Below, one piece after another: positions 4,601 through 17,350 of a DNA stretch of 64,000 nt. The notes below the pieces were generated by a model. The model was not told the DNA's origin. It was given only the letters and a program-made list of their open reading frames with translations, and made no database searches. This DNA is from Bordetella genomosp. 4 (GTDB lineage: Bacteria; Pseudomonadota; Gammaproteobacteria; Burkholderiales; Burkholderiaceae_B): positions 496,001 to 560,000 of the forward strand of contig NZ_NEVQ01000022.1 in the NCBI RefSeq assembly GCF_002261185.1. The letters are read 5' to 3'. The translations under genes were made by a program, and so were the position numbers. Numbering within the stretch: position 1 is the stretch's first letter; every line of letters begins with the position of its first letter.

Positions 4601-4777
4601 GAATGAATGCTCCGAGTGAGTTAATAGCCTGACGGCACATGTGCATTTCATCACCCGGCCTCGCAGGCTACAACGCGCCCGTCACAGCGAAATTGGACAA
4701 ACTTGCGTCGTTTTATACCCCGGCCTGAGCGCCGCCCAAACGGCCTTCCTAGTATGAATGCCATGTGCCCAAAATAA

Positions 4778-4794
4778 GGACACTCCGAGGACAC
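4778..4794 (+). promoter_or_regulatory. Putative enhancer site: GGACAC direct repeat
   Basis: GGACAC occurs at 4778-4783 and 4789-4794, an 11-base pitch (one helical turn), about 110 bases upstream of the -24 element. That distance suits binding of a sigma-54 activator and DNA looping. The same spacing and near-identical hexamers (GTGTCC and TTGTCC on this strand) occur upstream of the ligase operon. Assignment to the activator gene at 14260 is inference. Confidence 0.45.
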
Positions 4795-4900
4795 ATGGCG
4801 CCTCTCGCTGGTCGTGCCGATTACACATCCCGCTCTGTAGCCGGGTCGCACCCGAGCATGCACCTAGGGAAATCCCCAAGAGAAACCTATCCCGCTACAC

Positions 4901-4917
4901 CTGGCATGCCTTTTGCG
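4901..4917 (+). promoter_or_regulatory. Sigma-54 (-24/-12) promoter for crotonase gene
   Basis: CTGGCATGCCTTTTGCG fits the consensus YTGGCACGrNNNTTGCW with the invariant GG (4903-4904) and GC (4915-4916) at the correct 10-base spacing and only minor deviations. It lies about 75 bases before ATG 4991, leaving a normal leader. Confidence 0.65.
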
Positions 4918-4990
4918 TCTATATCTTTAACAATTGATTCCGGGCGCCTCCCGGCGCTCACCCCTCTCAAATGGAAGGAAGACACACGAG

Positions 4991-5800
4991 ATGACTGACC
5001 GCTACGCACGCTACGAACGCCTCGCCTTTGACCGCCCAAGCCCGCGGGTGCTACGCATCACCATGCGCTCGCCGCTGAAGATGGGCGCCATGGACGCCCA
5101 GATGCACCGCGAGGTATCGGAAATCTGGCGCGATGTAGACGCCGATGACAGCGTGAACGTGGTGATCTTCACAGGCGACGGCAAGACCTTCTCTGCCGGT
5201 GGCGACCTGAAGCACGAGCGCAAGGTGTGCGACGACTACGCGCTGCGCATGCGGGCGATGAAGGAGTCACGCGATCTGGTGACCAATATGCTGGACTGCC
5301 GCAAACCGATCGTAACGGCGGCGCGCGGCTGGGCGGTGGGCGCCGGTCTGGCGACGCTGCTGCTGGCGGATGTGTCCATTGCGGCGAAAGACGCCAAGTT
5401 CTCTGACGGCCATCTGAAGATCGGCGTAGCCGCAGGTGATCACGCTGCGATCATCTGGCCCCTGCTCTGCGGGATGGCCAAGGCGAAATACTACTTGCTT
5501 ACGGCGGATACGATTACCGGTGAAGAGGCAGAGCGCATGAATCTGGTGTCCCTCGCACTGCCGGATGAGGAGGTAGAAGCGCGCGCGCTGGAAATCGCCA
5601 ACCGTCTCGCACAGGGCGCCCCAGCCGCACAGCGTTGGACGAAGATGATGCTGAATCACTGGATCAAACAAGCCATGCCGATTTTCGATGCATCGCTTGC
5701 GTTTGAATTTACGGGCTTCGCCGGGCCGGAAGGCAAGGAAGGCATTGACGCGTTTCTTGAAAAGCGCAGTCCCAATTTCAGTTCGGATTGCCCGTTCTGA
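4991..5800 (+). CDS. Enoyl-CoA hydratase/isomerase family protein, non-canonical
   Basis: 269-residue crotonase-fold protein. The start MTDRYARYERLAF is preceded by AAGGAAG; an earlier in-frame codon at 4934 is rejected because it lies just after the promoter and lacks family sequence. The oxyanion-hole loops are present (FSAGGDLKHE; GWAVGAGLATLLLADV). Both glutamates of classical enoyl-CoA hydratase seem absent: at the usual PEIxxG position it reads DGHLKIG, and the second site reads AKYYLLTA. The segment GVAAGDHAAIIWPLL is shared by a crotonase subgroup of uncertain reaction. It is transcribed toward the ligase operon, ends at a strong terminator, and has its own sigma-54 promoter, so it likely acts in the same pathway. 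Confidence 0.82.
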   Translation: MTDRYARYERLAFDRPSPRVLRITMRSPLKMGAMDAQMHREVSEIWRDVDADDSVNVVIFTGDGKTFSAGGDLKHERKVCDDYALRMRAMKESRDLVTNMLDCRKPIVTAARGWAVGAGLATLLLADVSIAAKDAKFSDGHLKIGVAAGDHAAIIWPLLCGMAKAKYYLLTADTITGEEAERMNLVSLALPDEEVEARALEIANRLAQGAPAAQRWTKMMLNHWIKQAMPIFDASLAFEFTGFAGPEGKEGIDAFLEKRSPNFSSDCPF

Positions 5801-5822
5801 TACATAAGTAGACGCGTCATGG

Positions 5823-5855
5823 AAATCGCCGGCTCATAAGGCCGGCGATTTTTCT
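5823..5855 (+). terminator. Rho-independent terminator, perfect 11-bp stem
   Basis: AAATCGCCGGC at 5823-5833 pairs perfectly with GCCGGCGATTT at 5841-5851 around a 7-base loop and runs into TTTCTCT. It lies 23 bases after the crotonase stop, between two convergent units. With AAA before the left arm it may also work leftward on the long operon. Confidence 0.85.
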
Positions 5856-5963
5856 CTCTGCGCGATGTACCTGCATGCACTGCGCCAGAAAACATATTGC
5901 CGTCGACAAGACGATGCAGCCGGATGCCACCTGTCATTATCCGCTCGATCAATCGCCTATCGA

Positions 5964-6953
5964 TCAAGAAAGACGCAGCACGTACTTGCCCTTTGCCTTT
6001 CCATTCGCCAGTACACGCAGCGGCTCGGAAAAACGCGCCAAAGGCAATACTTCCACAATGTGCGGACGCAGCGCTCCCTTTGCATGCAACTCATACAACA
6101 CGCGTTGCACTTCGCGTACTTTCTCCGGTTGACGATCGCGATAATCGCTCCACTGCAATCCAGACACGGCGATGTTCTTGACCAGCAGATAGTTCACCTT
6201 CAGTGTCGGAATACGGCCTGCGGCAAAGCCAATACACACCAACCGCCCACACCATGCCACCGCTCGGATCGCAGCGTCGAAAATCTCGTCACCCAAGGGA
6301 TCGAGCACGACATCGGCCCCGTGTCCGCCGGTGCAGGCGAATACCTGCTGCCGCAGTGATTCGCGCAAGTCTGGTGCCGACAGATCAATGATGTGATCGG
6401 CACCCAGGGCTCGCGCAGCCTCGGCCTGCTCTGCGCCCGCCACGCCAGCCAAGGCTGTTCCGCCCAGCGCCTTCACGAGCTGGATGGCCGCACCGCCCAC
6501 GCCGCCCGCAGCGCCATTGACCAGGACGATCTCGCCCTTCTTGAACTGTCCGCGTTCCACCAGTGCAAAGTAGGCCGTTTGATACACCAATCCCATGCCC
6601 GCGGCATCTGCGTCGGAAATGCTATCGGGCAAGGGATAGCAGGACGCAGCGGCCGCGAGCGTACGTTCGGCAAAAGCGCCAAACTCGACCTGCGCCACGA
6701 CACGGTCGCCCACTTTCAGGCCCTGTACACCAGGTCCGAGCACAGCAATCGTGCCTGCAGCGTCCTTGCCAGGCACAAACGGGCGCGCAGGCAGATTCTG
6801 GTATTTGCCGGTCATTACCAACAGATCTGGGTAGTTGACGCCGGCATGGGTAACGGAGATCACCACTTGTCCCTCGCCAGGCACCGGCTCTGCAAAGTCT
6901 TCAACGCTCAGGTTTTCGGGCTCGGCGAATTCATGAATAACGACCGCTTTCAT
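5964..6953 (-). CDS. NADPH:quinone oxidoreductase family protein (zinc-free MDR)
   Basis: 329 residues of the medium-chain dehydrogenase/reductase superfamily. It starts MKAVVIHEFAEPENLSVEDF, as QOR-type enzymes do. The Rossmann motif appears as LVNGAAGGVGGAAIQLVKAL (about residue 143) and the domain closes with KAKGKYVLRLS. The Cys/His ligands for catalytic zinc seen in alcohol dehydrogenases are absent, so it should reduce quinones or enoyl thioesters with NADPH. It is the last gene of the eight-gene acyl-CoA operon and overlaps the CoA-transferase gene by 4 bases (ATGA). In this setting it might act as an enoyl-CoA reductase or electron sink; that is inference. Confidence 0.87.
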   Translation of the reverse strand: MKAVVIHEFAEPENLSVEDFAEPVPGEGQVVISVTHAGVNYPDLLVMTGKYQNLPARPFVPGKDAAGTIAVLGPGVQGLKVGDRVVAQVEFGAFAERTLAAAASCYPLPDSISDADAAGMGLVYQTAYFALVERGQFKKGEIVLVNGAAGGVGGAAIQLVKALGGTALAGVAGAEQAEAARALGADHIIDLSAPDLRESLRQQVFACTGGHGADVVLDPLGDEIFDAAIRAVAWCGRLVCIGFAAGRIPTLKVNYLLVKNIAVSGLQWSDYRDRQPEKVREVQRVLYELHAKGALRPHIVEVLPLARFSEPLRVLANGKAKGKYVLRLS

Positions 6954-8083
6954 TTAGTGCTGTCTCCTGTGGCGACATCGAATAATTGTTGTGTATGCTG
7001 GCCCAGCGCCGGCGCCGCAACGCGGCGCTCGTCTGACCTGAACGCAGCGCACACCGGCACGGGCAGCGCGGGCATGGACGCGCCACTGCTGTTCAATACT
7101 TCGCGCTCGAACAGACCGCGGGCTTTGAAATGCGGGTCCTGTAGCGCCTGCTCCAGGTTGACGACTTCAGAAACGCAGACGTCATGCCCATCGAACCGCT
7201 GCATCCATTCGTCCGCTGATCTCGACCCAATGATGCGCGCAACCTCGGCCGCGATGCGCCCATCGTCTTTCTCGTCAGCCAATTGCGGCGCCTCGATGAG
7301 CGACAAAAAGGTAGCCCAGAACTTGTCCTCGAGCGGCGCTGCCGACAGGAATCTGCCGTCGGCCGTTTTGTAGATGGCGTAACGCGGCGAGCCGCCGCTG
7401 ACGAGTTCCTTGCCTGCGCGTGGCCATTGCCCCTGGCTCCAACCGTTGCCCAGGCCCCAATACATCAGGGTGAACAGGTTGTCCGTCATGGAAACATCGA
7501 GATGCTGTCCCTTTCCATCCAGATCGCGCTGGCGCAGGGCGAGCAAGATGTTGATGACCGCCGGATACGTTCCGCCCGCCAGATCGCCCGTCAATGTAGG
7601 TGGCACGATGGGCGCGCCGCTCGCGTCCCCAGACAGGCCCAGCATGCCGGTTTCAGCCTGAAAATTCAGATCATGCGCAGCTCTGAGTGCTTTAGGGCCA
7701 TGCTGCCCATAGGTGGTGATAGAGCAATAAATCAGCCTCGGATTGATTTGCGACAGGGTTTCGTAATCCAGACCCAGACGCTTCATGACACCCGGCCTGA
7801 ATTGCTCCACCACGATGTCCACTTCGCGCACCAGCTCCAGCAACTGCGCGCGATCCGCTTCGGCCTTGAGATTCAAGCATGCCGAACGCTTGCCGCGATT
7901 GAGCAGTACGAAGTTGACGCTATCGTCCCCAAAGCGAGGCTCGTAGCTGCGCATTTCGTCGCCGGCGTCGCGCTCCACTTTGATCACGTCCGCACCTGCT
8001 TCGGCAAGGATCAACGTGCACATCGGCCCGGGCAGCAAGGTGCTCAGGTCCAGCACCTTTATTCCTTTCAAGGGTTGTGTCAT
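6950..8083 (-). CDS. CaiB/BaiF family CoA-transferase
   Basis: 377 residues, class III CoA-transferase, which moves CoA between carboxylic acids through an aspartyl-CoA intermediate. I start it at ATG 8083 (MTQPLKGIKVLDLSTLLPGP); the frame is open further upstream but that part lies within the preceding gene and is not family-like. Typical marks: LPGPMCTLILAEAGADVIKVER, a DEMRSYEP loop, NRGKRS, and the probable nucleophile Asp in SMTDNLFTLMYWG (about residue 174). Start overlaps the upstream stop (ATGA) and its own stop overlaps the quinone reductase start, so translation is coupled on both sides. It could activate the pathway substrate by CoA exchange as an alternative to the ligase. Confidence 0.88.
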   Translation of the reverse strand: MTQPLKGIKVLDLSTLLPGPMCTLILAEAGADVIKVERDAGDEMRSYEPRFGDDSVNFVLLNRGKRSACLNLKAEADRAQLLELVREVDIVVEQFRPGVMKRLGLDYETLSQINPRLIYCSITTYGQHGPKALRAAHDLNFQAETGMLGLSGDASGAPIVPPTLTGDLAGGTYPAVINILLALRQRDLDGKGQHLDVSMTDNLFTLMYWGLGNGWSQGQWPRAGKELVSGGSPRYAIYKTADGRFLSAAPLEDKFWATFLSLIEAPQLADEKDDGRIAAEVARIIGSRSADEWMQRFDGHDVCVSEVVNLEQALQDPHFKARGLFEREVLNSSGASMPALPVPVCAAFRSDERRVAAPALGQHTQQLFDVATGDSTK

Positions 8084-8733
8084 GGCGCATCCTTGTTGTG
8101 GCGCGCCCATGCGACCTGGGCGCGGCGTGCGGGTGCGTAGGGTTCCTGGCCCAGCGCCTCGTACAGCGCCTGCGTGATGCGATAGTGATGGTGCAGCCCG
8201 CTGCGCTTGAGCAATGAAATCGGGCCCTCGGGATAACCCAGCCCCAGACACAGTGTCTTGTCCATGTCCGACGCGCTGGCCAGGCCGTCGTCCAGACGGC
8301 GCAGGGCAGCGTTGTAGTATGGACGCACCAGGCGATTGAGGATACGGCCGGGAAAATCATTGCAAACGGCCACCTTCAGGCCCGCAGACTCGAAAGCTTG
8401 CCTGGCGGCATTTACGGCAGCCTCGTCTGTGTAGGGCTTTTTCACCAGCTCGACCAGATTGGTGGGTGCATCGTCGCCCAGTCTAAAGCGCGCGAATCCG
8501 ACCACATTGGCTGGACCCTCGTCTTCACCGGTGTGCACACCCAGGCATTCCATATCGAGCTCGATGGCGACGAAAGCTTTGCCTGCGGCCCCTTCGATGC
8601 CTTCGCTCCACGCCTTGCCTGCGCCGTCTCCGATCAGCACGACTCCGTCGCCTTGGCCGGCAGCAGCCGCAATAAACGCATGGGCATCAGGAAAAGATTG
8701 GCTTTCGCCACGCTTGATAATTTGATAGCTCAT
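8080..8733 (-). CDS. 3-hydroxyacyl-CoA dehydrogenase-like protein without clear NAD motif
   Basis: 217 residues. The second half has the 3-hydroxyacyl-CoA dehydrogenase C-terminal domain pattern: DFPGRILNRLVRPYYNAALR and LCLGLGYPEGPISLLKRSGL. The first half, about 100 residues, does not show the GxGxMGxGI dinucleotide-binding loop; VVLIGDGAGKAW is only a distant echo. A protein with this layout resembles the extra C-terminal part found in long PaaH/FadB-type enzymes, here split into its own gene. It lies 4 bases after the complete dehydrogenase gene and overlaps the CaiB gene. It may form a hetero-oligomer with the dehydrogenase; function is uncertain. Confidence 0.7.
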   Translation of the reverse strand: MSYQIIKRGESQSFPDAHAFIAAAAGQGDGVVLIGDGAGKAWSEGIEGAAGKAFVAIELDMECLGVHTGEDEGPANVVGFARFRLGDDAPTNLVELVKKPYTDEAAVNAARQAFESAGLKVAVCNDFPGRILNRLVRPYYNAALRRLDDGLASASDMDKTLCLGLGYPEGPISLLKRSGLHHHYRITQALYEALGQEPYAPARRAQVAWARHNKDAP

Positions 8734-8737
8734 GTGC

Positions 8738-9613
8738 TCAGGCTCCGAAAATCTTGTTGCTGTCGTAGGTGTGGAAACCGGCGCCCGATTTTCTGCCGAG
8801 TTTTCCAGCGCCGATCATGCGTTTGACCAGCGGGGGGCAAGCTGCACGGGGCTCATTGGTGAGGCCGTGCATGGCATCGGACAAGAGCTTCTGCGTATCC
8901 ATACCAACCATGTCCAGCAGCTCCAGCGGACCCAGCGGATAGCCCAATGCGGTCTTGACGGCGAGGTCTATGTCCGCCGGCGTGGCCACACCCTGGTCCA
9001 CCATATTGATGACATCGTTGTGCCACGGAATGAGGAAATAGTTGAGAATGAATCCCGGGGTGTCGCGCGTCTTGACGGGCTTTTGCCCCAATGCTTCGCA
9101 GAACGCCCAGGCCTTGGCAAAGGTCTCCTCCGACGTGGTGAGGCCAGGCGACATTTCGACAAGCTTCATCAGTTGCGCGGGCAGGCAGAAATGCATGCCC
9201 ACCACGCGATCGGCGCGACCGCTGCCACCGGCAATCTCAGTGATCGAGATGGTTGACGTATTGGAGGCAAACAGCGTGTGAGGCGGGCAGATGTCGTTGA
9301 GCTGAGAAAACAATGCGTGTTTGACCTTCAGGTCTTCGAACACGGCCTCGATGATTACATCGCACTCGGCCAGATCCTCGGCTCGCGTGGTGCCTTTCCA
9401 CTGTGCCATGATGGCCTCGTCCTGGCCTGCTGCCAGTTTGCCACGGGCGACCGATTTTTCCAGAAATGCCGCGGTCTGCTTGCGAGCATTGTCCAGTGCA
9501 TCCTGGCGCGCATCGAGCACGATGGTCCTGAATCCCGCTCGGGCAGCCACGATAGCGATGCCCGTGCCCATGGTGCCGCTGCCGACGACACCGACCGTCT
9601 TTATCTCGCTCAT
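8738..9613 (-). CDS. 3-hydroxyacyl-CoA (3-hydroxybutyryl-CoA type) dehydrogenase
   Basis: 291 residues, full-length for the Hbd/PaaH family that oxidises (S)-3-hydroxyacyl-CoA with NAD. The NAD loop VGVVGSGTMGTGIAIVAARAG is at residues 7-27; FASNTSTISITEIA and the catalytic histidine segment VVGMHFCLPAQLMKLVEM (about 137-154) follow; the C-terminal helical domain begins at DTPGFILNYFLIPW. Start overlaps the acyl-CoA dehydrogenase stop by 4 bases. It supplies the second oxidation step of a beta-oxidation-like route in this operon. No thiolase gene is found in the window, so the 3-ketoacyl product must be cleaved by a hydrolytic crotonase or an enzyme encoded elsewhere. Confidence 0.92.
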   Translation of the reverse strand: MSEIKTVGVVGSGTMGTGIAIVAARAGFRTIVLDARQDALDNARKQTAAFLEKSVARGKLAAGQDEAIMAQWKGTTRAEDLAECDVIIEAVFEDLKVKHALFSQLNDICPPHTLFASNTSTISITEIAGGSGRADRVVGMHFCLPAQLMKLVEMSPGLTTSEETFAKAWAFCEALGQKPVKTRDTPGFILNYFLIPWHNDVINMVDQGVATPADIDLAVKTALGYPLGPLELLDMVGMDTQKLLSDAMHGLTNEPRAACPPLVKRMIGAGKLGRKSGAGFHTYDSNKIFGA

Positions 9614-10785
9614 TTCCCTTCCTTTTTCAAAAAGCTGCGGCCGATGAGTTGTCGATGGATCTGGTTCGTGCCTTCCCAGATCTGCGTGATCTTCGCGTCG
9701 CGCATCAGGCGTTCAGCCCGGAAATCCTGGCAATAGCCATAGCCGCCATGCAGCTGCACGGCATCCGTGGTGATGCGCATGGCGAGGTCGGTCGCCTTGA
9801 GCTTGAGGATGGACGCCTCTATGCCCATGTCGTCCACGCCTTGATCCACGAGGCCGCCAACATGCCAAAGCCAGCTTTCGCACAGTGCCAGCTCTGCCGC
9901 CAGATCGGCCACCATGAACTGAATCCCCTGAAATTCGAGGATGCGCTTGCCCGACTGCTTGCGGTCATTGATATAGGCAGTGGCGTCCTCGAATGCTGCG
10001 CGCGCAATGCCAAGTGCATGCGCAGCCACGCTGGGACGCGATTTGTTCAGCGAGCCGAGCAGCACGCCCAAGCCCTTTCCAATCGGCGCGAGAATATTGC
10101 CGCGCGGAATGCGGCAGCCTTCGAACGACAACGAAGCCGTGCCAGAGGCCCGCGTACCCATCTTGTGCTCGGTGCCAGTCACCGTCAGCCCCGGCGTGCC
10201 TTTTTCGCTCACGACAGCGCCTATGGCCTCTTTGGCATTTTCGGCGCCCGCCCATTTGCCGAACACCACATACACGTCCGCTACATCACCATTGCTGATG
10301 AATATTTTCTGTCCGTCTACGACGATGTCATCGCCGTCTTCGCGGAACTGTGTCTTCATGCCCGTTGCGTCCGAGCCTGCTGATGGCTCGGTGATCACCA
10401 GCGACGCCAGCGCTCCCTCGGCCATACGGGGCAGGATGCGGGATTTCAGTTCTTCGGATCCATACTGAATCACCGGCTTGATCGCGTGAAAATTGGTGGC
10501 CCAGATAATGCCGGTGGCGGCGCAGGCTTTGGATATCTCGCGCACGCAGGCCAGATAGCACCGGTACGACAAGGGCATCCCCCCATAGGCTTCGGGGATG
10601 AACATGGCGTTCAGGCCCAGCGCATTGATGGCCTTGATGTTCTCCCAGGGAAACTCGCCTTTCTCGTCATAGGCCGCGGCACGCGGCGCGATTTCGTTCT
10701 TGGCCAACTCACGGACGGAATCGAGCAGCATGCCCTCTTCTTCCGAGAACGCCAGCGCCTGATCCAGGCGTTCCAGTACGTTCAT
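9610..10785 (-). CDS. Acyl-CoA dehydrogenase
   Basis: 391 residues, FAD-dependent, removing two hydrogens from acyl-CoA to give the 2-enoyl thioester. Signatures: LVITEPSAGSDATGMKT (about residue 130), QLHGGYGYCQDFRAERLMRDA near the end, and the catalytic base Glu in QIWEGTNQIHRQLIG (about residue 374). GGAG six bases before ATG 10785. It follows the SDR gene after a 45-base spacer, the largest inside the operon. By gene company (ligase, dehydrogenase, hydratase, SDR) it resembles AliB-type cyclohexanecarboxyl-CoA dehydrogenases, but branched or aryl-alkyl substrates are equally possible. Confidence 0.93.
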   Translation of the reverse strand: MNVLERLDQALAFSEEEGMLLDSVRELAKNEIAPRAAAYDEKGEFPWENIKAINALGLNAMFIPEAYGGMPLSYRCYLACVREISKACAATGIIWATNFHAIKPVIQYGSEELKSRILPRMAEGALASLVITEPSAGSDATGMKTQFREDGDDIVVDGQKIFISNGDVADVYVVFGKWAGAENAKEAIGAVVSEKGTPGLTVTGTEHKMGTRASGTASLSFEGCRIPRGNILAPIGKGLGVLLGSLNKSRPSVAAHALGIARAAFEDATAYINDRKQSGKRILEFQGIQFMVADLAAELALCESWLWHVGGLVDQGVDDMGIEASILKLKATDLAMRITTDAVQLHGGYGYCQDFRAERLMRDAKITQIWEGTNQIHRQLIGRSFLKKEGK

Positions 10786-10830
10786 GCTTTCTCCTTGATC
10801 ATTTCACTTTTCATGCGTGGCCGCGCGGCT

Positions 10831-11577
10831 TCAGACCGACACGCTCTGCGCGCCGTCGATGTAAATAGTCTCCCCGCTGAGAAAGCCCATGCCTTCCTGG
10901 AACAGCGACGCCACCAGCACGGCGACGTCCCGGGCTTCGCCGGGCTGTTTGCGGGGAATGCGTTTGTCCAGATAGGCGCGCAAGGGGCCGGCTTCCATCG
11001 CCTCGCGATTCAGGTCCGTCATGATGTAGCCCGGGGCCACATCGATCACCTGGATGCCGTCCTTGGCCCACTCGACCGCCAGGCATCGCGTGATCGCGCC
11101 TACTGCCGCCTTCGACGCGCAATAGGACACGTTGCGCTTTACGCCCAGCTTGTCGTAGAAAGACCCGATATTGACGATCACGCCGCCGCCTTGATTCTTC
11201 AGCAGCGGATGCACGATCTGGCATGCCTGCAGCAGCGACACCGCGTTGATGTCCATCAGTTTGCGGAACTCGTCCATCGGCAGATCGATGGTGGGCGCCT
11301 CGGTATGCAGGCCGGCATTGTTCACCAGGCCCCTGACAGGCACGCCCAGATTGCTGTGCAACGCCGCCATGGCGTCTTTCATCGCCTCGCCATGGGTCAC
11401 ATCGCAGGCCACCGCATGCCAGCGCGCGGCAATATCATCGGGTACGTCGGCAACATGCGGTTTGTCGCCCGAGCGTGACAGGCATCCCACCTCGTAGCCA
11501 CGGCGGGCCAGCTCATAAGCGATCATCGCTCCAATACCGCGACTCGCCCCCGTTACATAAATCAGTCCTGAGTCCAT
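10831..11577 (-). CDS. SDR family NAD(P)-dependent oxidoreductase
   Basis: 248 residues, classical short-chain dehydrogenase. Cofactor loop VTGASRGIGAMIAYEL (residues 8-23), NNAG motif in LVNNAGLHTEAP (about 85), and the YxxxK catalytic pair in VSYCASKAAVGAITR (about 150). Ends with GETIYIDGAQSVSV as family members do. It sits 3 bases from the hydratase gene in the operon. An SDR together with an AMP ligase, acyl-CoA dehydrogenase and crotonase is the gene set of alicyclic acid degradation (BadH oxidises 2-hydroxycyclohexanecarboxyl-CoA), so it may oxidise a cyclic hydroxyacyl-CoA. This role is inference. Confidence 0.9.
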   Translation of the reverse strand: MDSGLIYVTGASRGIGAMIAYELARRGYEVGCLSRSGDKPHVADVPDDIAARWHAVACDVTHGEAMKDAMAALHSNLGVPVRGLVNNAGLHTEAPTIDLPMDEFRKLMDINAVSLLQACQIVHPLLKNQGGGVIVNIGSFYDKLGVKRNVSYCASKAAVGAITRCLAVEWAKDGIQVIDVAPGYIMTDLNREAMEAGPLRAYLDKRIPRKQPGEARDVAVLVASLFQEGMGFLSGETIYIDGAQSVSV

Positions 11578-11580
11578 GTT

Positions 11581-12351
11581 TCAGCAGTCCTTGAAATTGG
11601 CAGGCCGTTTTTCCACAAAGGCGCGCAGGCCCTCGGCAGCGTCGTCGCTGCGGTAGGCGAGCGTCGACAAATCACGTTCGATGCGCAAGCCGTCTTCCAG
11701 ACCAGTGCGCCCGCCTCGCTGCACTGCCTCGCGCGCGAAGAACAGCGCGCAGAGACTGTGCTTCAGATACGGTTCCAGATAACGTTTACCGATCTCCAAC
11801 GGGCTGCCCTCGTTGTCGATACGGTTGACCAGACCGATGCGCTCGGCTTCTTCCGCCGCGACGGTTCGACCCGACATGATCATGTCCAACGCGCGTCCCT
11901 CGCCCACCAGCCGCGGCAACCGCTGGGTGCCGCCGTATCCTGGAATCAGACCCAGCTTGACCTCGGGCAATCCGACCTTCGCACGCTCTGTCGCCACCCG
12001 GAAGGTGCAAGCGAGAGCGAGTTCGAGGCCGCCACCAAAGGCATAGCCATGAATCACCGCGATGGACGGAATCTTCAGCGCAGCAATCTGGTTGAAGACG
12101 GCTTGCCCTTTGGCAGCCCCTTCGAGCTCTTGCATCAAGGGCCGGTTCATCAACTCGGGAATGTCTGCGCCTGCGCAAAAAGCCTTTTCACCGGCACCGG
12201 TGAAAATCAATGCGCGCGCGTCTGATTCGGCGACCCGCGTCAACGCGCTACTCAATTCAGACAAGACCTCGAAGCTCAATGCATTGAGCACTTCAGGGCG
12301 ATTGAGCGAGATATGCGCAAACTCGCCGTCATACTCCAGCTTTACGCTCAT
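11581..12351 (-). CDS. Enoyl-CoA hydratase (canonical crotonase)
   Basis: 256 residues. Unlike the crotonase at 4991 this one keeps the classical hydratase layout: oxyanion loops KAFCAGADI and GYAFGGGLELALACTF, then LPEVKLGLIPGYGGTQRLPR with the first catalytic Glu; the second site reads RALDMIMSGR, with Asp where Glu is usual. It should add water to a 2-enoyl-CoA. The start overlaps the ligase stop (ATGA), placing it second in the operon. The presence of two dissimilar crotonases in one regulon suggests one hydrates and the other performs a different step such as isomerisation or ring hydrolysis. Confidence 0.91.
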   Translation of the reverse strand: MSVKLEYDGEFAHISLNRPEVLNALSFEVLSELSSALTRVAESDARALIFTGAGEKAFCAGADIPELMNRPLMQELEGAAKGQAVFNQIAALKIPSIAVIHGYAFGGGLELALACTFRVATERAKVGLPEVKLGLIPGYGGTQRLPRLVGEGRALDMIMSGRTVAAEEAERIGLVNRIDNEGSPLEIGKRYLEPYLKHSLCALFFAREAVQRGGRTGLEDGLRIERDLSTLAYRSDDAAEGLRAFVEKRPANFKDC

Positions 12352-14072
12352 AGCGATACCCTTTCCTTGATAGCATTGTTGACGTCATTGGATGCCGACG
12401 ACGCTTTCCAGCGTACCGGTTCGGGCACGAGACGGCCGTCCTTCAACCACTCGACCAATTCGCGTTTGAGGATCTTGCCGCTAGGAGTGAGCGGGAACGC
12501 CTCCATCGCGAGGAAATACTCGGGCATGTCGTACTTGGACAGCCCCGCGTCATGCAGGTGTTGCAGGACTTCGTCAGCGGTCAGCGAAACGCCGGACGCG
12601 AAGATCACCGCCAGACAGACTTTTTCTCCCAGGCGATCATCAGGTACCGGGAAAGCCGCAGACTTGATGATGCCCGCATGCCGATGCGCCAGATCTTCGA
12701 TCTGCGATGGATAGATATTGTGGCCACCGCGAATGATCAGGTCTTTCTTGCGGCCCATCACATGCAGGCAACCGTTTTCATCCAGCATGCCCAGATCGCC
12801 GCTCAGGAACCAGCCCGAGGAATTAAAGGATTTCTCGGTTGCATCCTGATTGTCGTAATAGCCCAGCGTCAGCACGCCACCTTTACCGCCGATCTCGCCC
12901 GTCTCGCCCGGCGCCACTTCAAGGTCGGGGTTTTCGGGATTGAAGATCCTGATCTCGTAGCCTTTGCAGGCGCGCCCGCATGTGGACACAATCGTATTGC
13001 TGTCATCCGTGGGCAGCGTGTACTGATGCGAACCGTTTTCCGTCATCCCATACACATTCTGCGGTTTGACGCCCAGATCCAAGAAGCGTTGTGCCACCTC
13101 GCGGGGAATGGGTGCGCCCGCCATGTAGAACACCGTGACGTTGCCGAGTTGGCTCAGACCACGCTCGCGCAACGCATTCAGCATATCCATGGCATGCGTC
13201 GGCACGCCCATGACATACGTAGCCCCGGTTTCCAGCGCCCAATCCAGGGTCGATCGGCTGGCGGCGGGGTTGTACAGCACCAGTTCAATGCCCGCCACCA
13301 GAGACTGTTCCAGCGCCACCGTGCCGATGTGATGGCTCATGGGGCTGAGCGCGAGCAGAATCGTCGACGCATCATGCCTCCAGTCCGCAACCAATGCACG
13401 TCCGTTGGCGAGCAGCGTGTTGTCGCTGTGCATCACGCCCTTGGGCTCGCCGGTCGTGCCCGAAGTGAACGCCAGGTAGACCACTTTGTCTGGATCGAGC
13501 ACCGGTGCGCTGCTGATTCCGATGCTGCTGACATGGTCAGGAAACGGCAGCACCCCCTCGGGCAGCCAACCACTCGCGGGCTCGGCGCCTTGCGGAGCCA
13601 ATGCATACAGTTGCTTCAACGTCGAGATGCCAGCCGATTCCTTGAAGATCGAATAATGGTCCGAGTCAGCGCCGTAGCCCTGCTGCGCGAATAATGCCTT
13701 GCAGCGTATGCGCGTGAGCAATTTGACGATTTCGGCGTTGGTGTAGTTTTGATGCAAAGACGGGCAACATACATAACCGTTGCGCGAACATGCCAGGAAA
13801 ATCAGCACCGCCTCGATACGGTTGGGCAACCAGATCGCCACGCGGTCGCCACGCCGCAGGCCACCCTGATACAAGTGCTCGGCAATGATATCGACATTGG
13901 CGAGGACCTCTCGCCAGGTCAGACGGCGATATGGGTCACGTACCGCGCAGGCATTGGGCCGCACACGGGCATGCTCGCGCGCCAGCGAATACAGTGTGTC
14001 CTGGTGCCACACACCGCTCAGGTAGTTTTCCCTGGCGGTCTGTGGATCATGCAACGTCAGTATGGTGTTCAC
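12348..14072 (-). CDS. AMP-dependent acyl-CoA synthetase/ligase
   Basis: 574 residues, ANL superfamily. Core motifs in order: P-loop-like AFTSGTTGEPKGVMHSD (about residue 200), YGMTENGSHQY (about 340), WFLSGDLGMLDENG (about 425), GRKKDLIIRGGHNIYPSQIE (hinge), and SGKILKREL with the catalytic lysine near the C-terminus. It activates a carboxylic acid to acyl-AMP and acyl-CoA, feeding the operon. The start is GTG at 14072, preceded by a strong GGAGGAG. First gene of the operon, about 75 bases downstream of a predicted sigma-54 start. Sequence style fits the cyclohexanecarboxylate/medium-chain ligase branch; exact acid unknown. Confidence 0.9.
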   Translation of the reverse strand: MNTILTLHDPQTARENYLSGVWHQDTLYSLAREHARVRPNACAVRDPYRRLTWREVLANVDIIAEHLYQGGLRRGDRVAIWLPNRIEAVLIFLACSRNGYVCCPSLHQNYTNAEIVKLLTRIRCKALFAQQGYGADSDHYSIFKESAGISTLKQLYALAPQGAEPASGWLPEGVLPFPDHVSSIGISSAPVLDPDKVVYLAFTSGTTGEPKGVMHSDNTLLANGRALVADWRHDASTILLALSPMSHHIGTVALEQSLVAGIELVLYNPAASRSTLDWALETGATYVMGVPTHAMDMLNALRERGLSQLGNVTVFYMAGAPIPREVAQRFLDLGVKPQNVYGMTENGSHQYTLPTDDSNTIVSTCGRACKGYEIRIFNPENPDLEVAPGETGEIGGKGGVLTLGYYDNQDATEKSFNSSGWFLSGDLGMLDENGCLHVMGRKKDLIIRGGHNIYPSQIEDLAHRHAGIIKSAAFPVPDDRLGEKVCLAVIFASGVSLTADEVLQHLHDAGLSKYDMPEYFLAMEAFPLTPSGKILKRELVEWLKDGRLVPEPVRWKASSASNDVNNAIKERVSL

Positions 14073-14158
14073 AACACTCCTCCATGAATCCTTCTGTGCG
14101 CTGACGGCGTGATCACACCACCATCAGTTACCTTGTCCTGGTTCTCCTCCCCATTTCA

Positions 14159-14175
14159 AGCACAATTCATGCCAA
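14159..14175 (-). promoter_or_regulatory. Sigma-54 (-24/-12) promoter for ligase operon
   Basis: Read on the minus strand the element is TTGGCATGAATTGTGCT, with GG and GC at exactly the consensus spacing; it differs from YTGGCACGrNNNTTGCW mainly at one base of each box. It points at the ligase gene, whose start is 87 bases downstream of the -12 side, and lies next to a divergent sigma-54 activator gene. Confidence 0.68.
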
Positions 14176-14216
14176 GTGTGTCTTCCCTCTACTGCCGTAC
14201 TGGGCAGGGTGTTAAA

Positions 14217-14233
14217 GTGTCCAAAAATTGTCC
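14217..14233 (-). promoter_or_regulatory. Putative activator site, GTGTCC/TTGTCC repeat
   Basis: GTGTCC (14217-14222) and TTGTCC (14228-14233) repeat at an 11-base pitch, the same spacing as the GGACAC repeat before the crotonase gene at 4991. A further GGACA at 14250-14254 is inverted to them. The site is only about 45 bases from the -24 box and just before the activator start, so it may also serve in autoregulation. Confidence 0.4.
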
Positions 14234-14259
14234 ACCATGTATTGCACAAGGACATGTAA

Positions 14260-15963
14260 ATGGATGAAGGCAGACAAAATCAAAGTACACGCAAGGGTGT
14301 TCTGGTACTCGACTCCGAGGGTAACGCCGTTTTTGCCTCCGGTACCGGGCTGGACAAACACATCCAGGAAAAACTCACTTCCCTCTGGAAGGATCGAGAC
14401 CTGCGCAAGGTGTCACCCATGTTCACGCTCGAAGGCACGAGCGAACCGATAACAGTTGTGTCGTTCGTATCGGCCGGGACAGGCTGTTTTGTGCTGTATC
14501 GCCACGACAGCGGCGATGCACTTTACGAATTCGTCAGCAGTGTGGATTTCTCGGCGGATATCCTGCGCCATTTCGTGACCGACCCGTACGAGGCCATTAC
14601 CGTCATCGACGACAAGGCTCGCATCCAGTACATGAGTCCCGTGCATGAGAAATTCTTCGGCGTTCAGCGGGGGCAAAGCTGGGGCGCGGATGTCAATACC
14701 GTCATTGAAAACAGCCGCCTGCCCGCCGTGCTGCGCAGCGGAAAAACGGAAATCGGTCAGATTCAACGTATGCGCGGAACCAGCCGCGTGGTCAGCCGCA
14801 CACCGATCACCAATCCCGAAGGCCGCATCGTCGGCGCGATCGGTCAGGTCATGTTCAAAAGCCCGGCCGCCGTCGAGGCCTTGAGCGAGGAAATCAGACG
14901 CCTGCGCCAGGAGATCAGTTTCTATGAGCGTGAGTTGCCGCGTCTGCGCGGCAATATACACGGCATGGATTCCATCGTCGGCGAGAGCGACGCCATCCGC
15001 AAACTGAAAGATCGCATCAAGAAAATCGCCGCCCTCGATGTGTCCGTGCTGCTGGTCGGTGAAAGCGGCGTGGGCAAAGACCTGGTCGCCCATGCCATCC
15101 ATCAGCTCAGTCCGCGCGGCAGCAAAGACATGGTGCTGGTCAACGCCGCGGCCATTCCGGGCAATCTGGTGGAGGCCGAGCTATTCGGCTACGAAGGCGG
15201 CGCTTTTACCGGCGCCGAAAAGCGCGGCCGCACAGGAAAATTCGAAGAAGCCGATCACACGACCTTGTTCCTGGACGAAATCGGCGATATGCCCTTGGAC
15301 ATACAGGTCAAGGTGCTGCGCACGCTGCAGGACGGTACTTTTCAGCGGGTGGGCAGCAGCGCGCAACGCCGGTCGGATTTTCGCCTGATATCGGCCAGCA
15401 ACCGCGACTTTCAGCGCATGCTGGCTGATGGCGACTTTCGTCTCGATTTGTTCTACCGCATCAGCGCTGTCACTATCCGCGTACCGCCGCTGCGTGAGCG
15501 CCTCGAGGATGTGCCATTACTGGCCCAGACATTTCTCGAACGATTCATGCAACGCCACAATGTAAAGGGCAAGTATTTCGGACCGGGCGTCATCGCTTAT
15601 CTGCAATCATTGCCGTGGCCCGGCAATGTCCGTCAGTTGCAGCACACGGTCGAACGCGCGGCCATTTTTTCGGAGCAAAACGAAATCACCTGCTCCGACT
15701 GCGAAGTCCCGCTGGAAATGAACACGAGCGTCAGCCTCGATCCGTTGAATACCGCGCTGCACGAGATCACAGCGCCGACTGACGTCCTGCCTTTTGCCCC
15801 CAAGGAATCGGCCGATGTACGTCAGGCCAAGTCGCGCGTGGAATTGGACCTGATCCGCGATGCGCTGCAAAAATTCGACGGAAACAAAAAGAAGGCTGCG
15901 GAGTACCTGGGAATCTCACGATCGCATCTGTACAAGAAGCTGGGCGACGTCCAGGTGAGCTGA
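14260..15963 (+). CDS. Sigma-54-dependent Fis-family transcriptional activator
   Basis: 567 residues. Region 1-100 is an unrecognised sensory domain; a PAS domain follows (about 105-205: FVTDPYEAITVIDDKARIQY), a short coiled coil (EEIRRLRQEISFYERELPRL), then the AAA+ domain with Walker A GESGVGKD, the sigma-54 contact loop GAFTGAEKRG, Walker B LFLDEIGDMP, and arginine finger region; the end is a Fis-type helix-turn-helix (KKKAAEYLGISRSHLYKKL). GAFTGA is intact, so it should activate sigma-54 polymerase. ATG 14260 has AAGGA seven bases upstream. It is divergent from the acyl-CoA operon and probably senses its substrate or the acyl-CoA. Confidence 0.93.
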   Translation: MDEGRQNQSTRKGVLVLDSEGNAVFASGTGLDKHIQEKLTSLWKDRDLRKVSPMFTLEGTSEPITVVSFVSAGTGCFVLYRHDSGDALYEFVSSVDFSADILRHFVTDPYEAITVIDDKARIQYMSPVHEKFFGVQRGQSWGADVNTVIENSRLPAVLRSGKTEIGQIQRMRGTSRVVSRTPITNPEGRIVGAIGQVMFKSPAAVEALSEEIRRLRQEISFYERELPRLRGNIHGMDSIVGESDAIRKLKDRIKKIAALDVSVLLVGESGVGKDLVAHAIHQLSPRGSKDMVLVNAAAIPGNLVEAELFGYEGGAFTGAEKRGRTGKFEEADHTTLFLDEIGDMPLDIQVKVLRTLQDGTFQRVGSSAQRRSDFRLISASNRDFQRMLADGDFRLDLFYRISAVTIRVPPLRERLEDVPLLAQTFLERFMQRHNVKGKYFGPGVIAYLQSLPWPGNVRQLQHTVERAAIFSEQNEITCSDCEVPLEMNTSVSLDPLNTALHEITAPTDVLPFAPKESADVRQAKSRVELDLIRDALQKFDGNKKKAAEYLGISRSHLYKKLGDVQVS

Positions 15964-16048: not shown

Positions 16049-17176
16049 TCACGACATGGCATCCAGTGCCCGTTTCAGATTTCCCACGGTGCGGTCCAGA
16101 TTGTGCAGCTTGTCCAAGCCAAACAGCCCCAACCGGAAGGTCTTGAAATCGCTCGGTTCGTCGCATTGCAGCGGCACACCCGCAGCCGCTTGTATCCCTA
16201 CTGCGGCGAATTTGCGAGTCGAATGTATGCCGTCATCATCGGTATAACTCACGACAACGCCGGGGGCAGCAAAGCCATCAGCCGCCACGCTCTTGAACCC
16301 CTTGTCTCGCAACAATGCGCGCACGGCATCGCCCAGCGCCTGTTGTTCCGCGCGCACTTTATCGACGCCATAGGCTTCGAGTTCCAACATCGCATCGCGC
16401 AAGACCGTCAATGAATCCGTAGGCAAAGTCGCATGGTAGGCATGGCCCCCGCTTTCGTATGCCTCCATGATTTGCAGCCATTTACGCAAATCAGCCGCAA
16501 AACTGGTGCTGACCGTATCGCCAATACGCTGACGTGCCGTCTCACCCAACATGACCAGGCCGCAGCACGCCGATGCCGACCAGCCCTTTTGCGGAGCGCT
16601 GATGAGAATGTCGACGCCGACCGCTTTCATATCGACCCATATGGCGCCCGACGCAATACAGTCCAGCACAAATAGGCCGCCCTCGGCATGCACCGCATCA
16701 GCGACTTTGCGCAAGTAATCATCGGGCAGGATGATGCCTGATGCCGTCTCGACGTGCGGAGCGAATACCAGATCGGGTTTGTGCTGCTTGATGGCCGCTA
16801 CGACTTCTTCCACCGGCGCGGGCGCGAAAGGTGCCTGCCTGCCAGCGCTCACAGGGCGCGCCTTGAGCACAATCGATTCCGACGGGATGCTGCCCATGTC
16901 AAAAATCTGCGTCCAGCGATAACTGAACCAGCCATTGCGGATAACCAGGCAACGCTTGTTGGTCGCAAATTGGCGTGCGACGGCCTCCATGCCAAAGGTG
17001 CCGCTACCCGGCACCACAATGGCCGCCGAGGCGTTATAGGTTTGCTTCAACACCCGGGAAATGTCTTTCATCACGCCCTGGAAAGCGTTCGACATGTGAT
17101 TGACGGCACGATCGGTGTACACCACCGAGTATTCCAGCAAACCGTCCGGATCTACGTCGGGCAACAGACTGGGCAT
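16049..17176 (-). CDS. Class V aminotransferase (alanine/serine-glyoxylate type)
   Basis: 375 residues from ATG 17176 (MPSLLPDVDPDGLLEYSVVY), preceded by GGAGAG; the frame extends upstream but without family sequence. PLP enzyme of fold type I: VVPGSGTFGMEAVARQF binds the cofactor phosphate, VLDCIASGAIWVDMKAVGVD holds the Asp that contacts the pyridine nitrogen, and ISAPQKGWSASACCGLVML holds the Schiff-base lysine. It would move an amino group between glyoxylate or pyruvate and an amino acid. It stands alone between the sigma-54 activator and the iron-uptake cluster. A second, distinct class V enzyme is encoded at 42831; the two share only motifs. Confidence 0.88.
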   Translation of the reverse strand: MPSLLPDVDPDGLLEYSVVYTDRAVNHMSNAFQGVMKDISRVLKQTYNASAAIVVPGSGTFGMEAVARQFATNKRCLVIRNGWFSYRWTQIFDMGSIPSESIVLKARPVSAGRQAPFAPAPVEEVVAAIKQHKPDLVFAPHVETASGIILPDDYLRKVADAVHAEGGLFVLDCIASGAIWVDMKAVGVDILISAPQKGWSASACCGLVMLGETARQRIGDTVSTSFAADLRKWLQIMEAYESGGHAYHATLPTDSLTVLRDAMLELEAYGVDKVRAEQQALGDAVRALLRDKGFKSVAADGFAAPGVVVSYTDDDGIHSTRKFAAVGIQAAAGVPLQCDEPSDFKTFRLGLFGLDKLHNLDRTVGNLKRALDAMS

Positions 17177-17350
17177 GTTTTCTCTCCTAAATGTTGTACT
17201 AGGGCCGACCCGACAGCAGTCAGGGCGACTGGCTTTCGGTCGAGTGTATACCGACCTCAGGACCGAGGGTTCATTGCCACGCAGATACGGCAAAGCGCCT
17301 CGGGAAACCGGTCCCCCTCGCACCCGGAAAAACTCCTGCCCCCATTTTTA

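Follow-up and report, generated by a model that had tools for sequence, protein, structure and literature searches.

Genes and activator at the locus

The window analysed here is a 64,000-nucleotide stretch of contig C9 in the genome of Bordetella genomosp. 4, which comprises 5.53 Mb in 23 contigs. It carries an eight-gene acyl-coenzyme A (acyl-CoA) operon on the minus strand, a lone crotonase gene convergent with it, and a divergent gene for a sigma-54-dependent activator, which together form the core of the putative sigma-54 regulon considered in this study (Table 1). An original prediction from the sequence had proposed the operon and the separate crotonase, both of which are present, and had placed -24/-12 elements at 4901-4917 (plus strand) and 14159-14175 (minus strand); these were located at 4902-4916 and 14160-14174. 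It had also claimed an intact GAFTGA activator beside the second promoter. The activator frame is indeed intact, with the Walker A sequence GESGVGK at residue 267, GAFTGA at residue 314 and a helix-turn-helix (HTH) domain; Pfam matches were obtained to Sigma54_activat and the Fis-type HTH_8, while the PAS match fell just below cut-off.

Table 1. Positions of the genes and sites discussed (window coordinates unless a contig is named)
Feature	Position	Strand	Remarks
Outer inverted repeat, GCCATGTGCCC / GGACACATGGC	4760-4799 (4760-4770 with 4789-4799)		10 of 11 positions complementary; direct reading
Proposed activator site, crotonase promoter, TGTGCCCAAAATAAGGACACT	4764-4784	+	2 of 12 positions mismatched to AGTGTM-N9-KACACT; 117 bases upstream of -24; p=0.022 against shuffles
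GGACAC direct repeat, 11-base pitch, GGACACTCCGAGGACAC	4778-4794	+	Read as half-sites of overlapping dyads
Sigma-54 -24/-12 promoter of lone crotonase, TGGCATGCCTTTTGC	4902-4916	+	Direct reading, genome pattern search
Lone crotonase	4991-5800 (ATG at 4991)	+	NCBIfam NF005595 (PRK07327), 415 bits, cut-off 292
Quinone-oxidoreductase/enoyl-reductase-type protein, last operon gene	5964-6953	-	Profile matches
CoA-transferase family III (CaiB type)	6950-8083	-	Profile matches
Small 3-hydroxyacyl-CoA dehydrogenase C-domain protein	8080-8733	-	Profile matches
3-Hydroxyacyl-CoA dehydrogenase	8738-9613	-	Profile matches
Acyl-CoA dehydrogenase	9610-10785	-	295 bits to cyclohexane-1-carbonyl-CoA dehydrogenase NF043006, cut-off 650
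Short-chain dehydrogenase (SDR)	10831-11577	-	Profile matches
Enoyl-CoA hydratase-type crotonase	11581-12351	-	Profile matches, alignment
Acyl-CoA ligase, first operon gene here	12348-14072	-	263 bits to cyclohexanecarboxylate-CoA ligase TIGR03208, cut-off 792
Sigma-54 -24/-12 promoter of operon, TGGCATGAATTGTGC	14160-14174	-	One mismatch to TGGCAYRN4TTGC; conserved in relatives
Proposed activator site II, operon promoter, GGTGGACAATTTTTGGACACT	14216-14236	-	2 of 12 positions mismatched; 41 bases upstream of -24
GGACAC direct repeat, 11-base pitch, GGACAATTTTTGGACAC	14217-14233	-	Inside activator site II
Proposed activator site I, operon promoter, CATGTCCTTGTGCAATACATG	14236-14256	-	4 of 12 positions mismatched; 20 bases from site II; weak alone, p=0.13
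Sigma-54 activator: N-terminal sensory region (weak PAS), AAA+ with GAFTGA, Fis-type HTH	14260-15963	+	Pfam, motif reading
Peripla_BP_6-type solute-binding protein	G000:C10:68769-69986 (outside the window)		Perfect sigma-54 promoter; dyad 51 bases upstream of promoter

Loci of relatives (n=64) were retrieved via the activator and then mapped with the window proteins; the closest named relative in the activator search was Bordetella sp. BOR01 (84%). The HTH is well conserved (GNK...LG.SR.H/Y.LYK). In a comparison of 34 activators, nine were without exact GAFTGA, including that of L082, whose frame is broken. The window genome has two RpoN genes over cut-off, at G000:C21:225789-227159 and G000:C16:153465-154871. 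Sigma-54 control of the C16 copy is possible, because an exact sigma-54 site on the minus strand (C16:154964-154978) reaches into the 5' end of its longest frame; the start of this gene is not fixed. On the other side of the activator lies an open frame of 424 residues (16049-17323, minus strand), for which neither Pfam nor NCBIfam gave a match at the thresholds applied.

Conserved sigma-54 promoters of the operon and the lone crotonase

The GG-N10-GC spacing of the -24/-12 element holds at each unit. Genome-wide, the exact pattern TGGCAYRN4TTGC occurs at 35 sites, against 8 for the reversed pattern. On a scale with a maximum of 21, random 330-base stretches of the window (n=2000) reached a sigma-54 score of at least 19 in 2.1% of cases and at least 20.8 in 0.2%, so that the operon element (19.3) is unremarkable by score alone. 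It is remarkable because it is conserved: among 38 activator flanks, hand-chosen from the mapped loci with operon genes near the activator, 36 have an operon-facing element upstream of the activator, at 19.3-21, in Burkholderiales, Azospirillum and Thalassobaculum. The two failing flanks, L056 (18.0) and L059 (15.0), lack an operon gene next to the activator and for that reason were excluded from the activator-site set below.

A similar result was obtained for the lone crotonase. Nine copies at about 88% identity or more were found in eight genomes, and in eight of them, one per genome, a sigma-54 element lies 54-105 bases before the start (seven exact, one with one mismatch). By comparison, a single one of 22 more distant homologues (54-81% identical; those with a retrieved locus, a subset of all homologues matched) reaches a score of 19.

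The conserved upstream site is an inverted repeat

Direct repeats of the GGACAC type with an 11-base pitch had been claimed at 4778-4794 and 14217-14233 and read as the activator site. They lie exactly at those positions, yet it is not the direct repeat that is conserved. In 45 promoter regions, every 5+5-base dyad or direct repeat with a gap of 0-17 and at most one mismatch was counted, and the counts were compared with shuffles (n=8). The top signal of this unbiased search was the inverted dyad AGTGT-N11-ACACT (18 regions; shuffled mean 0.38), with GTGTA-N9-TACAC (16; 0.00) and GTGTC-N9-GACAC (15; 0.25) close behind, and no shuffle contained any inverted dyad in more than 4 regions. The best direct repeats, GACAC-N6-GACAC and GGACA-N6-GGACA, were each found in 8 regions, the latter against 0.38 in shuffles. 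The conserved unit is instead a 21-base inverted repeat, AGTGTm-N9-kACACT.

That the functional site should nevertheless be the 11-base-pitch direct repeat GGACAm-N5-GGACAC appears highly improbable. Its exact form occurs in both window promoters and in the operon promoters of three close relatives, and in no other promoter listed; among seven other crotonase promoters it is exact in none and present with one mismatch in one (L100), and it is rare in distant operons. Furthermore, Fis-type HTH activators bind inverted repeats as dimers, which argues against a direct repeat. The left GGACAC repeat can be read as half of the dyad at 4764-4784 plus one further half-site; the outer inverted repeat encloses this dyad and terminates in a third half-site. 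The dyad also extends in single loci (AGTGTCTTCGCCGAAGACACA in L082, AGTGTATTCGGCGAAGACACT in L048).

Of 30 distant operon flanks, the 21 with no more than two mismatches served to train a matrix for the inverted repeat, which was then tested on sequences outside the training set. Combined over nine promoters away from an adjoining activator flank, namely eight crotonase promoters and one relocated operon promoter, the matches gave Fisher p=1.8e-8, and over six close operon promoters p=3.5e-5. The upstream dyad is common to the units, though weak at the operon promoter of the window. In the close group there are two dyads about 20 bases apart (in the window 41 and 61 bases from -24); L055, L058 and L078 have two dyads 30 bases apart.

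An early pattern with two mismatches was too loose (3075 matches against 2208 for the control) and was abandoned, and a window-type site pattern gave one match.

A probable third unit: an unlinked solute-binding protein gene

Ranked with the distant-operon matrix, the genome's 35 exact sigma-54 sites are led by the promoter of a solute-binding protein gene on contig C10 (11.2), followed by a site scoring 9.9 and, in third place, by the crotonase promoter (7.0); random 200-base stretches (1500 draws) reached 7.0 in 2.3% of cases and 11.2 in 0.6%. The C10 promoter also carries the only exact AGTGTM-N9-KACACT of the whole genome. The protein was assigned to its family by 70-74% identity to relatives matching Peripla_BP_6. 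Its identity is 93% to the protein encoded directly behind the activator of G123 and BOR01, and 83-84% to the one whose gene follows the oxidoreductase in four genomes of genus group g4; in four relatives (L123, L125, L128, L132) a gene for the same protein directly follows the crotonase. Because the matrix picked this gene before its link to the locus was known here, we regard no other single observation as supporting a common regulon more strongly. Instead of the two promoters originally proposed, the regulon would thus comprise at least three units.

Thirty loci of this protein were analysed, among 72 genomes with a match. A perfect promoter is present at four, each with its own intergenic space (the window genome, G123, BOR01 and G025); three of these have an exact dyad, and that of G025 has three mismatches (matrix score 10.2). 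None of the remaining 26 has a perfect promoter (best score 19.0). Nineteen of them directly follow operon or crotonase genes, namely the oxidoreductase (4), the CoA-transferase (10), the crotonase (4) and crotonase b (1), a second crotonase of related operons described below.

On C10 (L251:4770-7804, i.e. G000:C10:68769-71803) an aldehyde dehydrogenase gene begins about 230 bases beyond the solute-binding protein gene, on the same strand, and a GMC oxidoreductase gene precedes it on the other side; the two flanking genes could possibly supply alcohol-to-acid feeder steps.

A probable single activator for all units

Co-regulation of the operon and the lone crotonase, as first suggested, is supported by the conserved promoters, by the performance at crotonase promoters of a matrix derived from distant operons, and by co-occurrence over 268 genomes of the family: the close forms of ligase and crotonase are found in eight genomes each, and seven genomes have both. 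We consider it probable that one sigma-54 activator, acting through these dyads, controls at least three units including the operon, the crotonase and the solute-binding protein gene.

Several observations weigh against this reading. First, the promoters of orthologues are non-independent samples. Secondly, the matrix match is non-significant when taken singly at the window operon promoter (p=0.13), L030 (0.25), L098 (0.13) and the L130 operon (0.23), and the second-ranked sigma-54 site falls within a frame of 658 residues that looks like an aconitase-type gene; this site is probably due to chance, so that single matrix scores are not proof. Thirdly, the dyad with one mismatch occurs at 7 places in the genome, against 10 for the reversed control. 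We therefore rejected the dyad alone as genome-wide evidence, and it is informative solely by its position relative to promoters. Fourthly, linkage is imperfect. The operon of L130 (genome G071) has kept its sigma-54 promoter without an adjoining activator; G145 has the crotonase with a sigma-54 promoter and no close operon, its ligase being only 55% identical; and the ninth crotonase copy (L126, Pollutimonas, 91%), a second copy outside the tested set of eight and examined separately, has a best sigma-54 score of 17.3 and no promoter, and sits in another gene cluster behind genes for acyl-CoA dehydrogenase and electron-transfer flavoprotein (ETF). Likewise, of the 30 loci with the solute-binding protein gene, seven (71-75%; L219, L221-L226) have other surroundings and no promoter, contrary to a simple rule by which every detached copy would have one; these seven may be paralogues. 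Finally, paralogous activators away from the operon have the same dyad type in 10 of 17 flanks, scoring at least 12.7. The dyad therefore marks an activator family, and cross-regulation is possible.

Two of these loci can be described further. In the L130 genome the best activator match is 48% identical and lies about 45 kb off on the same contig. The L126 cluster (G109:C35) includes genes for acyl-CoA dehydrogenase, ETF subunits, thiolase and a MaoC-type hydratase. The paralogous activators with the shared dyad (L047, L057, L066, L067, L068, L070, L071, L072, L074 and L090) may represent a larger family of sigma-54 activators.

The shared dyad type allows another explanation, that the activator of the window controls the operon only and that the crotonase and the solute-binding protein are driven by another member of the same family. 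The window genome does have 17 activator-like candidates, of which nine were scored. However, the window activator alone among these nine passes an E value of 1e-100, and the eight frames scanned next to the solute-binding protein gene include no activator of this kind. Since, in addition, the close operon and crotonase co-occur as described and the solute-binding protein gene stands directly behind this very activator in BOR01 and G123, we regard control by a second activator as unlikely.

On the evidence of promoters, dyads, conservation, gene linkage and co-occurrence, all of it taken from sequence, we infer binding, activation and effector sensing by a single activator as follows. The N-terminal, probably PAS-type, region would sense the substrate or a CoA intermediate; the protein would bind AGTGTm-N9-kACACT dyads upstream of the -24/-12 promoters; and it would drive RNA polymerase-sigma-54 at the divergent operon, at the convergent lone crotonase and at the unlinked solute-binding protein gene.

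The operon in relatives and a possible exchange of crotonases

In relatives the activator is usually divergent from an operon that runs CoA-transferase b, crotonase b, ligase, hydratase, SDR, acyl-CoA dehydrogenase, the two dehydrogenase parts, CoA-transferase and oxidoreductase. Operons of this kind were found in Burkholderiales (Cupriavidus, Pandoraea, Achromobacter, Paraburkholderia, Noviherbaspirillum, Variovorax), Azospirillum and Thalassobaculum; plasmids of Burkholderia multivorans and Cupriavidus basilensis carry them too, and typing classed the C. basilensis plasmid as conjugative. No SDR was detected in the operons of L063, L079, L081 and L092. The two 3-hydroxyacyl-CoA dehydrogenases match positions 5-290 and 351-491 of the 507 of PRK08268. 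It appears that a PRK08268/PaaH-like enzyme is split in two genes at 8080-9613 (minus strand), a pair that is adjacent in most mapped operon copies, and the small part has no NAD-binding domain match. The ligase gave no match to solved structures at 1e-70.

Crotonase b of the relatives scores 242-252 bits to the MenB model, 213-222 to a second MenB model and 216-231 to BadI, whereas the best models outside MenB/BadI score 135-140 bits; its nearest solved structures are MenB enzymes. A gene of this kind is absent from the window genome (best BadI score 129 bits, no match at 1e-100), as is a close CoA-transferase b (of 35 matches, none exceeds 39% identity). Because these two genes are missing, the window operon starts at the ligase; the promoter is kept nonetheless.

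The lone crotonase is of a different type, with EchA15-type enzymes as its nearest solved structures. In a three-sequence alignment it has a histidine in place of the glutamate in the PE motif of the operon hydratase and a tyrosine at the second acidic position. Its gene and the operon are convergent in the window, in G123 and in G150. In other genomes the gene follows the activator (G134) or the operon (G071), lies about 12 kb away (BOR01) or stands on a different contig (Pollutimonas). Among the 268 genomes, 40 have a ligase of at least 60% identity (partial matches included); 27 of these have crotonase b, seven the lone crotonase (identity about 88% or higher), none has both and six have neither. 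This distribution is consistent with replacement of crotonase b by the lone crotonase, but it is not proof. The exchange may be one event, since the seven genomes are closely related (Bordetella, Pollutimonas and Advenella groups).

In BOR01 (G209, L129:5806-15248) a block of flavocytochrome/tricarballylate-type flavoprotein genes lies between the operon and the crotonase, with two genes scoring, below cut-off, to the arylmalonate decarboxylase and EutA models; frames of like size adjoin the crotonase in Pollutimonas L125.

Pathway and comparison with known systems

The enzyme set would fit import of a carboxylic acid, formation of its CoA ester, dehydrogenation, hydration, oxidation and perhaps ring cleavage by a crotonase-family hydrolase. 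A likeness to cyclohexanecarboxylate degradation had been proposed. It stands in so far as the window operon shares CoA ligase, acyl-CoA dehydrogenase, hydratase and SDR with the bad-ali clusters of Rhodopseudomonas palustris and Aromatoleum sp. CIB, and orthologous operons add a BadI/MenB-type crotonase (PMC9795900). It fails in that this last gene is absent here and that the hallmarks of bad-ali were not found. According to that report, bad-ali clusters occur in many Burkholderiales and are repressed by the MarR protein BadR through an operator, CAAN4TTG, said to be conserved in Gram-negatives (PMC9795900). The operon promoter region (14073-14259) contains neither CAATNNATTG nor CAAN4TTG, and no MarR-family protein is found among 20 window proteins scanned with Pfam. 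Nor did the ligase (263 of 792 bits) and the acyl-CoA dehydrogenase (159 of 575) reach the curated cut-offs of the AliA and AliB equivalogs, and no protein of the window genome exceeded that for BadI; the BadI-like proteins of the relatives also stay below the BadI cut-off of 467.6. Since the BadR operator is absent and the model scores are far below the cut-offs, the window operon is by these tests not a bad-ali cluster, and plain membership, for which a BadI-like gene is lacking as well, was rejected. Two further differences are that the known clusters, as described in that source, are under BadR (PMC9795900) whereas the window operon has a divergent sigma-54 activator, and that it adds a CoA-transferase, a split 3-hydroxyacyl-CoA dehydrogenase and a quinone-oxidoreductase-type protein, with a second CoA-transferase in relatives.

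The evidence on the substrate is divided. There is about an even chance that it is not alicyclic at all, being a branched or aryl-alkanoic acid degraded by modified beta-oxidation, with the BadI/MenB-type crotonase of the relatives catalysing another reaction: no bad-ali model shown attains its curated cut-off, the window genome is without a close BadI-like gene, and the CoA-transferases and the reductase-type protein lie outside the bad-ali set. On the other hand, a single operon that combines a ligase, an acyl-CoA dehydrogenase, a hydratase, an SDR and a MenB/BadI-subfamily crotonase, while the genes mapped include no thiolase, has the bad-ali enzyme set. An alicyclic acid is a tentative assignment, somewhat short of an even chance, and the ring step is the weakest part of the explanation. 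More speculative, and rather unlikely as a whole, is the proposal that the kept unit of an alicyclic-acid regulon is not the operon but the sigma-54 promoter with its enhancer, that members such as the crotonase and the solute-binding protein leave or join with a new promoter and dyad, and that the EchA15-type crotonase took over the ring opening of a BadI-type enzyme still encoded within the operon of relatives.

Control of catabolic genes by a single sigma-54 activator has precedents. GabR of Bacillus thuringiensis has the same PAS-AAA-HTH order and acts at a sigma-54 promoter with an upstream repeat-type site, its PAS domain gating the promoter in response to the catabolic substrate; it differs in serving the gamma-aminobutyrate shunt through the gabT promoter and another site, and the window regulon, with at least three dispersed units, is set apart from it by description (PMC4279683). 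In Cupriavidus gilardii CR3, also of the Burkholderiales, genes for naphthenic-acid degradation with aliA/aliB/badH/badI-like steps have been proposed; in the text available from that report they are scattered candidates with no operon of the window composition, and the word "sigma" has no occurrence (PMC4547698).

A further parallel is LvaR, the levulinic acid regulator of Pseudomonas putida, which is said to be a sigma-54 activator of an acyl-CoA operon and to adjoin ligase and dehydrogenase genes; the gene set differs from that of the window, and the two are likewise set apart by description. For the terms searched, the open-access literature gave no account of the present regulon and no link of sigma-54 to cyclohexanecarboxylate or like operons.

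Implications

Taken together, the prediction from sequence of a sigma-54 regulon with three or more units, serving a conserved acyl-CoA operon that possibly acts on an alicyclic substrate, is well supported. The control logic is already of a known kind; the combination of genes and the pattern of dispersal are new. A degradation operon that is widely conserved, unnamed and also plasmid-borne thereby gains a predicted regulator, a predicted binding motif and a predicted three-unit regulon, whose control element recurs at genes dispersed from the operon. The three predicted promoters, together with the activator, would make reporter-based screening for the substrate practical.

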